From NCBI GenBank assembly GCA_016873775.1, contig VGWC01000007.1, positions 1 through 58,532 of the forward strand: 58,532 nucleotides of DNA, given 5' to 3'. A program made the position numbers and the translations under genes. Below the pieces are notes generated by a model. That model did no database searches, had not been told where the DNA came from, and saw only the letters and a program-made list of their open reading frames with translations. Positions 1,742 to 47,311 of this stretch are shown one piece after another (position 1 is the first letter of the stretch; every line of letters begins with the position of its first letter). The DNA comes from Ignavibacteria bacterium (GTDB lineage: Bacteria > Bacteroidota > Ignavibacteria > UBA10030 > F1-140-MAGs086).

Positions 1742-3058
1742 ATGGGTTTTTGGTCTGAGTTTCTTATCATTTTCGTTTTGATCTTGCTGAATGGTTTCTT
1801 TGCAGCATCAGAAATTGCTATTGTTTCTACTCGACGCACACGGATTAAAGATTTAATCGAAAAAGGGAAAACTCGCGCAAAAATAGTCGAGAAATTGCAA
1901 AGTAACCCCGATACGTTTCTTGCAACTGTGCAAATCGGAATTACTGTTGTCGGTTCGTTCGCTTCCGCTTTGGGAGGTACAGCCGCAATTCAATACTTAA
2001 AAGAACCTCTGCGACAACTGCAGATTCCGTTTATCTCAGAACATAGTGAGTTTATTGCAATAGTTATGGTCGTTACTCTCATTACGTACCTATCATTAAC
2101 AATTGGAGAATTGATTCCGAAATCGCTTGCACTTCGATACTCGGAAAAATTTTCATTACTCATTGCACCTTTCATACTCCTCCTTTCAAAAATTTTTTCT
2201 CCTGCGGTAAAAGTATTAGTTGGAACAAGTAATCTTTTTTTGAAACCATTTCACGACCAAACAACATTTTCCGAATCGAAAATTTCCGAAGAAGAATTTC
2301 GCATTATGCTCGACGAAGGAACAAAGAGCGGTATCATTGATAAAACCGAACACGAACTTATTTCGAGCATTTTTGAATTTACCGATACTACGGCAAAAGA
2401 AATTCTTGTTCCGCGCACAGATGTCATCGCAATCGAAATTACTTCCGAAAAAGAAAAATTGCTCCGTCTCGTTTCTGACGAAGGATATTCGCGGCTTCCT
2501 GTATTTCAGGAAAACCTCGATAATATTCTCGGCATTGTTTATGCAAAAGATTTGATTTCTCTCGCCGAGCATAAAGTCATTGTGCTGCATGATATCATTC
2601 GTCCGGCGTATTTTGTTCCGCAAACAAAAAAAATCAGCGAACTCTTGCGCGAAATGCAACAGCGAAAATTACATATTGCTATCGTGAACGATGAATATGG
2701 CGGCACTGCGGGAATTGTAACGATGGAAGATATTATCGAAGAAATCGTTGGCGAAATTCACGACGAGTACGATGACGAATTGAAAGAAATTGAAACAACT
2801 GCCGATGGTTCGTTTTTAGTGAACGGAAAAGTTTCCATCGGAGATTTTAATGAGCGTTTCGGAAGTTCCATTCCCGAAGAAGGGGAGTACGATACGATTA
2901 GCGGATTTATTCAAAAACTTGCCGGAAAAATTCCCGAAGTGAAAGAAGAAATCCGTTATGATAGCTGGACGTTTTCCGTAGTGAAAAAAAGCCAGAGAAA
3001 GATTCGGCAAATACAAGCGAGGAAAATTGCAAGTTCGGAGTTACAAGTTTCGAGTTAA
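1742..3058 (+). CDS. CNNM/CorC (HlyC)-type transporter-like membrane protein
   Basis: A 438-residue membrane protein with an N-terminal DUF21/CNNM transmembrane domain (about residues 1-190, hydrophobic from FLIIFVLILLNGFF), a CBS-domain pair (about 205-330; begins after DEGTKSGIID and ends with GTAGIVTMEDIIEEIVGE) and a C-terminal CorC_HlyC domain (about 345-425). The family is linked to Mg/Co or Na/Mg transport; the older name hemolysin C is misleading. An upstream in-frame ATG at 1688 would add 18 residues, but family members begin close to the first membrane segment, so 1742 is preferred. Its last codons (SSELQVSS) are written by inverted heptamer repeats that continue into the nadD array. 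Confidence 0.88.
   Translation: MGFWSEFLIIFVLILLNGFFAASEIAIVSTRRTRIKDLIEKGKTRAKIVEKLQSNPDTFLATVQIGITVVGSFASALGGTAAIQYLKEPLRQLQIPFISEHSEFIAIVMVVTLITYLSLTIGELIPKSLALRYSEKFSLLIAPFILLLSKIFSPAVKVLVGTSNLFLKPFHDQTTFSESKISEEEFRIMLDEGTKSGIIDKTEHELISSIFEFTDTTAKEILVPRTDVIAIEITSEKEKLLRLVSDEGYSRLPVFQENLDNILGIVYAKDLISLAEHKVIVLHDIIRPAYFVPQTKKISELLREMQQRKLHIAIVNDEYGGTAGIVTMEDIIEEIVGEIHDEYDDELKEIETTADGSFLVNGKVSIGDFNERFGSSIPEEGEYDTISGFIQKLAGKIPEVKEEIRYDSWTFSVVKKSQRKIRQIQARKIASSELQVSS
3029..3056 (-). repeat. Inverted heptamer array (4 units)
   Basis: Four 7-base units in exact register, GCAAGTT-CGGAGTT-ACAAGTT-TCGAGTT, are the reverse complement of the AACTCGC-type units that start at 3074. They encode the C-terminal residues of the CorC-type protein and end one base short of its stop codon. 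Together with the downstream array they could fold into a long imperfect hairpin across the corC/nadD junction. Confidence 0.85.
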
Positions 3059-3063
3059 TCGTT

Positions 3064-3759
3064 ATGGACAAACAACTCGCAACTCACAACTCGCAACTTG
3101 TAACTCACAACTCGCAACTCGCAACTCGCAACTCGCAACTTGCAACTCGCAACTCACAACTCGCAACTCGCAACTCGCAACTCACAACTCGTTTAGGAAT
3201 CTTCGGCGGCGCATTTAATCCTCCTCACGTTGGACATTTAATTGTTGCAGAAAATGTGCGAGAAAAATTGCAACTTGATAAAATTATTTTTGTTCCAACA
3301 GGAAATCCACCGCACAAATCGAATGAACAATTAATTGACGGAGCAATGCGTTTACAAATGGTGCAACTCGCAATCAAAGGAAATAAATTTTTCGACATCA
3401 GCGATGTTGAATTTTTGCGAAAAGATTTTTCGTACACCGTTGATACTCTCAAACTGTTTCAGCAAATGTATCCACAAACAGAATTATCTTTCATCATCGG
3501 CGCAGATAATTTTTTAGAACTCCACACATGGAAATCGCCGAAAGAAATTTTTTCTCTTGCATCCGTTGTGGTAATGAACAGAGAAGGTGTTGTGATGAAT
3601 AAAAATGAATTTTCTTCGCTCGTAAAATTGGTGAACGTTCCGAATATTGAAATATCATCGAGCGAAATCCGAAAGAAAATTGCGCTTGGAAAATCAGTGA
3701 AGTATCTGGTCTCGGAAAAAGTGGAGAAGTTTATCGTGAAAAATAAATTGTATAAATGA
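3064..3759 (+). CDS. nadD: Nicotinate-nucleotide adenylyltransferase
   Basis: NadD adenylates nicotinate mononucleotide in NAD synthesis. The family core begins at residue 43 (RLGIFGGAFNPPHVGH, with the GxFNPxHxGH nucleotide-binding motif) and ends with the ISSSEIR motif near residue 200. The core is ~189 residues, the usual length. Residues 1-42 are encoded by the heptamer array. No in-frame ATG, GTG or TTG lies between the array and the core, so the only visible start is ATG 3064, ahead of the array. Either the extension is translated, or an unusual start is used. It follows the CorC-type gene by 5 bases. CoaD at 32327 belongs to the same nucleotidyltransferase fold. Confidence 0.9.
   Translation: MDKQLATHNSQLVTHNSQLATRNSQLATRNSQLATRNSQLTTRLGIFGGAFNPPHVGHLIVAENVREKLQLDKIIFVPTGNPPHKSNEQLIDGAMRLQMVQLAIKGNKFFDISDVEFLRKDFSYTVDTLKLFQQMYPQTELSFIIGADNFLELHTWKSPKEIFSLASVVVMNREGVVMNKNEFSSLVKLVNVPNIEISSSEIRKKIALGKSVKYLVSEKVEKFIVKNKLYK
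3074..3192 (+). repeat. Heptamer array, 17 units of AACTCGC type
   Basis: Seventeen units of exactly 7 bases (119 bases), with variants AACTCGC, AACTCAC, AACTTGC, AACTTGT and AACTCGT. Three units (21 bases) make seven codons, so the array is translated as a 7-residue repeat of the type LATRNSQ. It resembles the heptameric STRR repeats known from filamentous cyanobacteria. Gain or loss of units not in multiples of three would shift the nadD frame. Confidence 0.95.
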
Positions 3760-10889: not shown

Positions 10890-12311
<1,422 letters not shown>

Positions 12312-29315: not shown

Positions 29316-30029
29316 ATGAAAAAAATAATCAAACTCAAAAAATCAGTTATTCCCAGTTGCGATGTGAGTTCGCTTTCATCTCTGAAAACATTGGTGAAAG
29401 AAACAACGAACATTAAAGGTGTCGGCGCGTACAAAATTGGGTTTCAACTTGCGCTTGGGTTTGGTTTTCCAAAAGTGATTGAAGTGATTCGCAAATATTC
29501 TTCGCTGCCGATTATTTACGACCATCAGAAAGCGGGGAATGATATTCCGGAAATGGGAAAACGATTTGCAGAAGTGTGTTGCGATATTGAAGCCGTGATT
29601 TTATTTCCGTTCACAGGACCAACATCGGAACGAGAATGGATTCGCGCAGTGAAGAAACAAAAACTTGGATTGATCGTCGGTGGTGAAATGACGCACAAAA
29701 ACTTTTTGGAAAATGATGATGGATTTATTCGTTACGATGCGCCGAATGAAATTTATTCCATTGCAGCAGAGGAAGGGGTTTGCGATTTTGTTGTTCCCGG
29801 GAATAAACCGGAGAGAATTTCTTTTTACAAAACTCTAATTCAATCGAGAGGAATTATGCAGCCGATATTTTATTCTCCGGGATTTATTACGCAAGGAGGA
29901 AATGTTTCCGACGCAGTACAATCTGCGGGAGAATATTATCACGCAATTGTTGGTCGTGCGATTTATGAAGCAAAGGATATCGCACAAGCGACGGAAGAAA
30001 TTGTGAAGCAATTAGGAATTAAAAATTAG
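29316..30029 (+). CDS. pyrF: Orotidine 5'-phosphate decarboxylase
   Basis: PyrF decarboxylates OMP to UMP. The 237-residue protein follows the archaeal-type layout: conserved strand VIPSCDVSSLSSLK with the first Asp, the catalytic D-x-K-x-x-x-D array in IYDHQKAGNDIPEMG, and the phosphate loop HAIVGRAIYEAKD near the end. It lies directly after pyrE. Its last codons (QLGIKN, TAG) are written by the heptamer array that also carries the purF start. Confidence 0.88.
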   Translation: MKKIIKLKKSVIPSCDVSSLSSLKTLVKETTNIKGVGAYKIGFQLALGFGFPKVIEVIRKYSSLPIIYDHQKAGNDIPEMGKRFAEVCCDIEAVILFPFTGPTSEREWIRAVKKQKLGLIVGGEMTHKNFLENDDGFIRYDAPNEIYSIAAEEGVCDFVVPGNKPERISFYKTLIQSRGIMQPIFYSPGFITQGGNVSDAVQSAGEYYHAIVGRAIYEAKDIAQATEEIVKQLGIKN

Positions 30030-30049
30030 GAATTAGGAATTATGAATTT
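30008..30049 (+). repeat. Heptamer array spanning the pyrF stop and purF start
   Basis: Six units in register: GCAATTA, GGAATTA, AAAATTA, GGAATTA, GGAATTA, TGAATTT. The pyrF stop TAG lies across units 3 and 4, and the purF ATG is formed at the junction of units 5 and 6. Confidence 0.8.
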
Positions 30050-31754: not shown

Positions 31755-32330
31755 ATGAGAATAATTTCCGGTGAATTAAAAGGTCGAACGCTTGTTTCCG
31801 CAAAAGGCGTTGATGTTCGTCCCGTAACGGATAGAGTGAAGCAAGTTATATTCGATGTGTTTCAAACGCGATTGAATTTGAAAAATGCAATTGTGCTCGA
31901 TGCGTTTTGCGGTACGGGAAGTTTGGGATTCGAAGCATTGAGCAGAGGAGCAAAACGCGTTGTATTTGTGGATGATTCTTCTGATTCCCTCGACGTGTTG
32001 CAAAAAAATGTTGCTAAACTTTGCGTAGAACGAAAATGCGATATCGTTCGTGGCGATGCATTGGAGTATTTCGAACGCTGTAAAGAAAATTTTCATCTCA
32101 TCTTTGCCGACCCGCCGTATGCGTTTGAACAAACAAACAAAATTCCGTTTCTTGTTTCCCAAAATAATTTATTGAAAACAAATTGTTTTCTCGTCATTGA
32201 ACATTCAAAACATCTTACGGATTGGAAATCACAACACTCAAATCACAAATCTCAAATCATCCTTACTAAATCATTCGGTAATACTATAGTAACATTTTTT
32301 CAAAACAGACAGAAAGAAACTGAACAATGA
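31755..32330 (+). CDS. rsmD: 16S rRNA (guanine-966-N2)-methyltransferase
   Basis: RsmD methylates G966 of 16S rRNA in the assembled small subunit. The 191-residue protein has [26 protein letters not shown], the SAM motif [18 protein letters not shown] and the catalytic ADPPYAF. Near residue 160 the loop [12 protein letters not shown] is encoded by a heptamer array. The gene overlaps coaD by four bases (ATGA), a common rsmD-coaD arrangement. Confidence 0.94.
32226..32260 (+). repeat. Heptamer array inside rsmD
   Basis: Five units in register, GAAATCA, CAACACT, CAAATCA, CAAATCT, CAAATCA, are translated in frame in the C-terminal third of RsmD. 35 bases is not a multiple of three, so flanking changes must keep the frame. 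Confidence 0.7.
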
Positions 32331-45466: not shown

Positions 45467-47311
45467 ATGAAAAAAAATAGATACTCAACATTTATTTGTT
45501 TGATATTTTCCTTTTTGTTTTTAGAAATCGCCGCTTTAAATGCACAGGTGATAAGCGTTTCTCCGCCTCAAAATGCGTTGAACGTGCAACCAAACGCTAC
45601 GATACAGGTTACGTTTGCGCAAGCGATGAATACCACAACATTTAACGACACTTCCTCGTTTTTGGTGTACGGACAAACAAGCGGAAGGTACCGCGGAAGT
45701 TTTTCGTTTTCATCTGCGTTCTCAAAAACTGTCATTCCCGCGAACGCGGGAAACCACAACGATGTGGGAAAAATGGATTCCCACTTGCGTGGGAATGACT
45801 ATACAAAGATATTCAACAACATTGTAACATTTACTCCCAATACCCCTTTTAAAAAAGGCGACATTATTACGGTAAATGTAACCAACAAAATAAAAAATGC
45901 AAACGATGTTGCTATTACACCGTTGCTGTGGCAATTTACAGTTGTTGTAAATATTTCGGATGGAACATTTTCGACTAACGTTGATTATGCAACAGGAAAT
46001 TTACCATCTTCAGTTTCTGTGAGCGATATAGATGGCGATGGTGATGGTGATATTGTAATTGCAAATGGGATTTCAAATACAGTTTCTGTCCTGAAGAATA
46101 ATGGTGATGGCACGTATGCGGCAAAAGTTGATTATATAACAGGAGATAATCCATATTCAGTTTCTCTGAGCGATATAGACGGCGATGGTGATGGCGATAT
46201 TGTTACTGCAAATTACTGGTCAAATACAGTTTCTGTATTGAAGAATAATGGGAATGGAACATTTATGGCGAAAGTTGATTATGCAACAGAAAGTTATCCA
46301 TCTTCAGTTTTTGTGAGCGATATAGATGGCGATGGTGATGGCGATATTGTAACTGCAAATTACTATTCATATACGGTTTCTGTGTTGAAGAATAATGGGG
46401 ATGGAACGTTTGCGCCTAAAGTTGATTATACAACAGGAACTGAGCCACGTTCAGTTTCTCTGAGCGATATAGATGGCGATGGTGATGGCGATATTGTAAC
46501 GGCAAATCTTGATGCAAATACAGTTTCTGTTCTGAAGAATAATGGAGATGGAACGTTTGCGTTTAAAGTTGATTATGCGACAGGAACTGAGCCACGTTCA
46601 GTTTCTCTGAGCGATATAGATGGCGATGGTGATGGCGATATTGTAACAGCAAATTTTAATGCAAATACAGTTTCTGTTTTGAAGAATAATGGGAATGGAA
46701 TGTATGCGGCGAAATTTGATTATGCAACAGGAGGTAATCCATATTCAGTTTATGTGAGCGATATAGATGGCGATGGTGATGGCGATATTGCCGTTGCAAA
46801 TTGGGGTTCAAATTCAGTTTCTGTGTTGAAGAATAATGGGAATGGAACGTACGCGACGAAAATTGATTATACAACTGGAGTTGGTCCAATTTCAGTTTAT
46901 GTGAGCGATATAGATGGCGATGGTGGTGGCGATATTGTAACTGCAAATTACTGGTCAAATACAGTTTCTGTATTGAAGAATAATAATACCACCTCCACCA
47001 TCTCCGCGGGGGAAGTAAATATTCCTAAAGAATTTTCATTAAGTCAAAATTATCCCAATCCGTTCAATCCGACAACAACGATTCGATTTGAAATTCCCGT
47101 AGGGGCAATTCATGAATTGCCCTTACAAACAACGTTGAAAATCTACAACGTTCTCGGTCAAGAAGTTGCAACGCTTTTGAATAATGAAACGATGGACGAA
47201 GGAGAACACGAAGTTCAGTTTGATGCAAGTGGATTAACAAGCGGCTTGTATTTCTATAGCTTACGCGCCGGAACATTCTTGGAAACGAAGAAAATGATAC
47301 TGCTGAAATAA
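45467..47311 (+). CDS. Secreted VCBS/FG-GAP propeller protein with T9SS tail
   Basis: 614 residues. Signal peptide 1-27 (FSFLFLEIAALNAQ). A Big_5/SbsA Ig-like domain (about 30-165; ISVSPPQNALNVQPNATIQV, ending WQFTVVV) is interrupted by an in-frame palindrome. Residues ~165-508 form seven VCBS repeats of exactly 49 residues, each with the Ca-binding loop DIDGDGDGDIV, fitting a seven-bladed beta-propeller. Residues ~525-614 are a type-A T9SS sorting domain ([20 protein letters not shown]) carrying a second in-frame palindrome. ATG 45467 is chosen for the signal peptide; an ATG ten codons earlier has none. Likely a surface adhesin. Confidence 0.9.
   Translation: MKKNRYSTFICLIFSFLFLEIAALNAQVISVSPPQNALNVQPNATIQVTFAQAMNTTTFNDTSSFLVYGQTSGRYRGSFSFSSAFSKTVIPANAGNHNDVGKMDSHLRGNDYTKIFNNIVTFTPNTPFKKGDIITVNVTNKIKNANDVAITPLLWQFTVVVNISDGTFSTNVDYATGNLPSSVSVSDIDGDGDGDIVIANGISNTVSVLKNNGDGTYAAKVDYITGDNPYSVSLSDIDGDGDGDIVTANYWSNTVSVLKNNGNGTFMAKVDYATESYPSSVFVSDIDGDGDGDIVTANYYSYTVSVLKNNGDGTFAPKVDYTTGTEPRSVSLSDIDGDGDGDIVTANLDANTVSVLKNNGDGTFAFKVDYATGTEPRSVSLSDIDGDGDGDIVTANFNANTVSVLKNNGNGMYAAKFDYATGGNPYSVYVSDIDGDGDGDIAVANWGSNSVSVLKNNGNGTYATKIDYTTGVGPISVYVSDIDGDGGGDIVTANYWSNTVSVLKNNNTTSTISAGEVNIPKEFSLSQNYPNPFNPTTTIRFEIPVGAIHELPLQTTLKIYNVLGQEVATLLNNETMDEGEHEVQFDASGLTSGLYFYSLRAGTFLETKKMILLK
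45731..45799. repeat. REP-like palindrome translated inside a secreted protein
   Basis: GTCATTCCCGCGAACGCGGG at one end and CCCACTTGCGTGGGAATGAC at the other: the widespread CATTCCCGCG-type dispersed palindrome. At 69 bases (23 codons) it is read in frame as TVIPANAGNHNDVGKMDSHL plus RGN inside the Ig-like domain. Confidence 0.92.
45961..46989 (+). repeat. Seven tandem 147-bp VCBS repeats
   Basis: The segment CGATATAGA(T/C)GGCGATGG recurs at 46024, 46171, 46318, 46465, 46612, 46759 and 46906, always exactly 147 bases (49 codons) apart. DNA identity between units is high, so the array expanded recently or is homogenised by recombination. The last unit has GGTGGTGGC instead of GGTGATGGC, changing one loop Asp to Gly. 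Confidence 0.97.
47099..47126. repeat. 28-bp palindrome inside a T9SS tail
   Basis: GTAGGGGCAATTC-AT-GAATTGCCCTTAC, read in frame as VGAIHELPL between FEIP and TTLKIY of the sorting domain. The same sequence occurs at the same site of another T9SS tail (52884-52911). Confidence 0.92.

Follow-up and report, generated by a model that had tools for sequence, protein, structure and literature searches.

How does a core enzyme come to begin with a peptide written by a tandem repeat whose unit is seven bases long? The question is raised by nadD in the window analysed here, a stretch of 58,532 nucleotides of contig VGWC01000007.1 from an Ignavibacteria bacterium (genome G000). The gene, a single-copy core gene in this genome, is an open reading frame of 231 amino acids at 3064-3759 on the plus strand, delimited by its ORF, its profile matches and a scan for start codons, and residues 1-43 form a repeat-encoded N-terminal extension. 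Tandem-repeat analysis of the array at 3073-3191 (plus strand) gave a period of 7, 17.0 copies and 87% matches. The 17 heptamers, CAACTYR, comprise CAACTCG (11 copies), CAACTCA (three), CAACTTG (two) and TAACTCA (one), with a longest perfect run of 4 of the 17 units. A tandem repeat of 7 nucleotides encodes a peptide of 7-residue period in every frame; in the frame used here the array is read as (QLATRNS)n.

The enzyme core occupies 3193-3759 on the plus strand, is 82% identical to that of a relative of the same genus (G001), and is homologous to solved NadD from residue 42. Its identity is secured by scores above the curated cut-offs of TIGR00482 (186.6 bits, cut-off 112.45) and NF000840 (214.5, cut-off 150), and these profile matches cover the protein only from residue 41-46 onward, with the extension outside them. 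The sole standard in-frame start is the ATG at 3064, 43 codons 5' of the first core codon, TTA 3193. No ATG, GTG, TTG, CTG or ATT occurs in frame between that ATG and the core, and 5' of it, before an upstream stop, there is one other candidate, a CTG 76 codons away. The earlier note had claimed that a 17-unit heptamer array codes for the N-terminus of NadD, with the only in-frame start before the array and the core directly after it, and both observations held at the positions given above. AlphaFold returned a mediocre model from a three-sequence alignment (mean pLDDT 71.8). The extension is drawn in it as a single helix, residues 2-38, with pLDDT mostly 80-90, which on so small an alignment may be an artefact of the repeat.

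The array is one half of a larger structure. Upstream of nadD lies a gene of the CNNM/CBS/CorC_HlyC family (1742-3058, plus strand), recognised by the Pfam domains CNNM, CBS and CorC_HlyC and by orthologues beside nadD in G001 and in a relative of the same family (G002). It is termed gldE-like here, its score against TIGR03520 GldE being 286 bits, below the cut-off of 376. Its last codons are formed by four degenerate units on the minus strand (AACTCGA, AACTTGT, AACTCCG and AACTTGC) at 3027-3056, identified as an inverted repeat and by a family pattern match at 3030-3056. These 30 nucleotides are 87% complementary to 3088-3117. The loop between the arms, 3057-3072 on the plus strand, is defined by the sequence and by RNA folding and contains the nadD ATG (3064-3066) and the last part of the stop codon of the gldE-like gene. 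Together the two arms make up a palindromic element that spans the gene junction, with the nadD array as its overgrown right arm.

Relatives have a simpler junction. In G001 (Ignavibacteriales MAG CROMO_A_84, JAGXRH010000170.1) the NadD N-terminus is MGKLSITRLGIF, and in G002 it is MKIGIFGG; the gldE-like and nadD genes of G002 overlap by ATGA. Among the relatives read, which comprised the forward-strand loci and, from the reverse strand, that of G002, nadD starts 2-9 codons 5' of the core. The earlier note had proposed a comparison of orthologues for the extension; it is absent from both G001 and G002, and among the genomes read it is specific to G000. The G001 locus (L094 3050-3478) has two short genes at the place where G000 has the heptamer element, separating the gldE-like gene from nadD. 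By eye, we take this pair to resemble a HicBA toxin-antitoxin, the second gene being seemingly broken by an in-frame stop.

The element is not confined to nadD. Pattern searches found AACTYRN arrays at about 35 places in the genome, often as inverted pairs, in a catalogue built from such searches and from fetched genome stretches and thus incomplete. Over the whole genome the heptamer pattern had 59 matches and a control pattern read backwards had 0, so the nadD array is not a chance occurrence. Most of the places found are inside ORFs or at their ends. About 15, recognised by translating the surrounding ORFs and then naming them, lie in frame within conserved genes. These include UvrA, PolA (two), IleRS (two), UvrC, ValRS, MetH (two places), a GH57 glucanotransferase, an exopolyphosphatase-like protein, a PurL-like ORF and a dehydrogenase E1 alpha subunit; two secreted proteins with T9SS-type tails also carry internal elements. 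TrpB, a GlmU-like uridylyltransferase and several more have elements at their ends. The insertion at IleRS site 1 is missing from five aligned relatives, that of UvrA has 45 residues compared with 5 in a solved homologue, and the PolA element is an insertion relative to Taq polymerase. Alignment to relatives or solved homologues likewise confirmed the UvrC and ValRS elements as insertions. Arms range from 3 units to the 17 of nadD, whose array is longer than any other found. A second candidate unit family, AAAYCAC, was set aside with two places only in this genome. The inserts of UvrC (L046 1477-1645) and GH57 (L047 1418-1545) are composites of several heptamer classes, with AATGGAG, CACCTTC, CAGTAGT and AAACCAC beside AACTCGC, such that different heptamers accumulate at one site.

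Beyond this genome the distribution is patchy. At least three AACTYGN units were detected in 3 of 60 relatives (G000, G001 and G035), and at least four AAYTCGN units in 13 of 395 genomes drawn from across the phylum, belonging to scattered families. The arrays of G001 and G035 are also inside long ORFs, for example those of AcrB-type, radical SAM, MetH and Mur ligase proteins and of T9SS-type tails. In the tails of several G000 and G035 proteins (L049, L055, L061, L063), GAGTTNN heptamers occur at the same tail position (SYELRVTSF) with tail length apparently unchanged, as if native sequence had been replaced. The window itself contains other repeats. CGTTATT heptamers (1366-1396, 4.4 copies) lie in what is left of a T9SS-type C-terminal tail, which runs into a stop, so that a repeat seems to have shortened the tail. 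AAATCAC-type heptamers (32226-32259) are in frame in a Cons_hypoth95 (RsmD-type methyltransferase) gene at 31755-32330, an ATTTGAG/ATGTGAG array (10912-10943) sits just upstream of an enolase-looking gene, and an AATTAGG array (5.6 copies) is found at 30010-30048. A longer repeat, with 147-nucleotide units (45958-46984, 6.8 copies, 84% matches) in a 640-codon open frame, encodes 49-residue repeats with an FG-GAP-like look.

Stop codons indicate how the elements are read. In 22 elements there are 0 stops in the coding frame and 23 and 30 in the other two. ORFs are open by definition, so internal elements with conserved flanks weigh most in this count, and among the 13 of these no stop falls in the coding frame, versus 42 in the others. 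The variable seventh base of the unit is more telling. A T there makes TAA only at codon position 1 of the sense strand, and T is found at 0 of 17 such positions, compared with 11 of 28 at other codon positions (p=0.003), 25 of 39 in antisense units (p 3e-6) and 28 of 49 in intergenic units (p 2e-5), with the proviso that units within an array are partly dependent on one another. The pattern of stops argues that the elements of the family are translated, and the NadD extension almost certainly is. In the nadD array C occupies 15 of 16 seventh-base positions, which fits either a recent expansion of C-type units or avoidance of stops in every frame.

It is probable, in our judgement, that NadD owes its first residues to one copy of a dispersed palindromic repeat of 7-base units, which is translated and tolerated and is not a selected switch. 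The element, with AACTYRN units in two inverted arms, lies at the junction, its left arm serving as the end of the gldE-like gene and its right arm as the start of nadD, and the right arm would then have grown to 17 units by tandem duplication. Purifying selection would keep the in-frame length and the absence of stops, the peptide itself probably being near neutral. Arms may arise and change at the DNA level, most likely by replication slippage and by template switching between arms, and unit gains or losses that change the frame would probably be rare, harmful mutations, the mutation rate being presumably low. Against this reading, the length and nearly uniform seventh base of the nadD array could reflect recent active slippage.

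How the arms change can be followed at two other sites. At IleRS site 2 of G001 the loop is nearly the same (GTTTGGGAAA), the two arms being built from a different heptamer (GTTGGAG / CACAAAY), and the UvrC site of G001 has GAATTAC-type units. Such joint change of both arms, seen at these two sites, suits template switching between the arms of a hairpin, a process documented in yeast genes and reported to homogenise inverted repeats (PMC8604942). Replacement of the arms independently of each other, or transposition, is the rival account of these sites. A more tentative proposal is that heptamer palindromes embedded in coding sequence have their arms rewritten together by hairpin-templated copying while the frame is held, the nadD array being a recent run-away copy; core enzymes would then keep acquiring and rewriting peptides of 7-residue period. 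Two other ideas on growth and origin were rejected. Growth in in-frame steps of three units left no autocorrelation at lag 3 and a weak one at lag 6 (p 0.07), and the T9SS-tail coding sequence considered as a seed of the heptamer (AGTTAYCAGTTACC) had its pattern in 5 of 60 relatives only, with neither G000 nor G001 among them.

The alternative that survives best is a selfish element moved by a transposase, for example of the Y1/RAYT type, with only in-frame, stop-free copies persisting. A dispersed family with one unit consensus and with empty sites in relatives would be expected of such an element, and the genome has four Y1 transposase genes (Y1_Tnp, PF01797), of which one is roughly 1 kb away from an array (on C105). 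However, the copies have no constant ends, their arms vary over the 3-17 units given above, sites are replaced by other heptamers and no target duplication was recognised, which leaves transposition a possible but doubtful source.

Maintenance of the element for regulation in cis, with a hairpin at the nadD ATG coupling translation and a ribosome on the gldE-like gene melting the left arm, is improbable. The gldE-like stop codon ends 5 nucleotides before the nadD ATG, the predicted RNA fold at the junction, which places the ATG in its loop region, is better than that of shuffled sequences (z -4.1), and the overlapping ATGA of G002 can be read as ancestral coupling. Against this, G001 and G002 lack the hairpin, and most copies of the family sit inside genes. 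Nor does the family as a whole show a sign of selection for an mRNA hairpin: sense-strand arms have 30 A.C mismatches versus 16 G.U, an excess attributable to stop avoidance. A terminator scan detected no terminator-like site at the junction, and promoter-like sites there were not above those in shuffled sequence. A local effect of the fold on translation of nadD is possible.

Less probable still is a contingency locus, as the earlier note had proposed, in which slippage of the array would turn NadD synthesis on and off, or adjust it, and would be retained for this effect. Contingency loci that carry simple repeats within the coding sequence typically have pure repeats, in dispensable and often surface-related genes, with observed variants. 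The nadD array resembles them in having a unit length that is not a multiple of three behind the start codon, is the longest of its family among those found, and has a single stop over its three frames together, as would follow from frequent shifts in unit number. In contrast to such loci it is degenerate and lies in a core gene; with four unit variants and no perfect run beyond 4 of 17 it is not a pure array prone to slippage. The claim that a 7-base unit shifts the frame holds for ATG 3064, where gain or loss of one unit breaks the frame to the core, but this account is incomplete: by frame arithmetic, TTG 3027-3029 on the plus strand comes into frame with the core at -1 unit or +2 units (241 and 248 amino acids), so that an OFF state reached by losing one unit would be leaky. 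A switch at nadD is also unlikely because a dozen further core genes or more carry the same arrays in frame, where OFF would be equally harmful, and the orthologous MetH element differs by 3 nucleotides between two species, its length nearly unchanged. Selected phase variation of nadD is, on the sequences compared, not supported. The least credible reading makes the array an untranslated leader, with a non-standard start codon inside it or behind it. It has in its favour that core homology starts right behind the array, but the earlier note's suggestion of a start inside the array fails for want of any of the five codons in frame there or elsewhere between ATG 3064 and the core, and stops are avoided in the coding frame across the family.

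Heptamer repeats are known from several other bacteria. The heptanucleotide repeats of cyanobacteria (STRRs) also form dispersed tandem arrays of a degenerate 7-nucleotide unit; they are mainly intergenic, whereas the arrays described here are largely within coding sequence. In the cyanobacterial P6b the stem arms belong to one of two heptamer classes that have switched repeatedly, comparable to IleRS site 2, although P6b lies in an intron and the heptamers of G000 are largely inside translated sequence. TAACTGA repeats of Beggiatoaceae and Bacteroidetes are mainly upstream of start codons and chiefly intergenic (PMC4679880), GGGAATC repeats of Xanthomonas are chiefly intergenic with inverted pairs noted (PMC4692102), and GGACCGG repeats of Geobacter occur also within genes (PMC2700814). 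In the portions of these three papers drawn on here, the repeats are likewise dispersed, degenerate and patchy over lineages; their units are different, and palindromes placed in frame within a group of core enzymes are not among the features described in those portions.

Beside the cyanobacterial repeats, the closest likeness is to the Rickettsia palindromic elements, about 100-150 bp long, which are in frame in many conserved protein genes and tolerated there (PMC2229807, PMC10969869). Palindromic elements in frame within conserved protein genes are also present here, as are empty sites in relatives (NadD, IleRS site 1). The Rickettsia families have a defined sequence, whereas the arms of the present elements, in another phylum, are tandem 7-base units that vary in number and in class, and fixed ends were not found. 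Homology is unlikely given this variable-length heptamer build. The nadD element may be said to work like the Rickettsia elements and to be built like the heptamer repeats of cyanobacteria, Beggiatoaceae, Xanthomonas and Geobacter. Coding palindromes are also present as inverted repeats within protein genes of Nematomorpha mitochondria (PMC6649704); these and the inverted repeats of yeast genes are neither heptamer arrays nor bacterial. The papers searched contained no description of this repeat in Ignavibacteriales or of the combination of features found here.

Heptamer repeats in bacteria have mostly been described between genes; here they are in some of the most conserved genes of the lineage. 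With a unit that is not a multiple of three, each copy records the balance of repeat mutation against the reading frame, and the family is a natural experiment on the origin of repeats, their homogenisation and their tolerance in proteins. The case is also a warning that a repeat able to shift the frame of an essential gene is not necessarily a switch.
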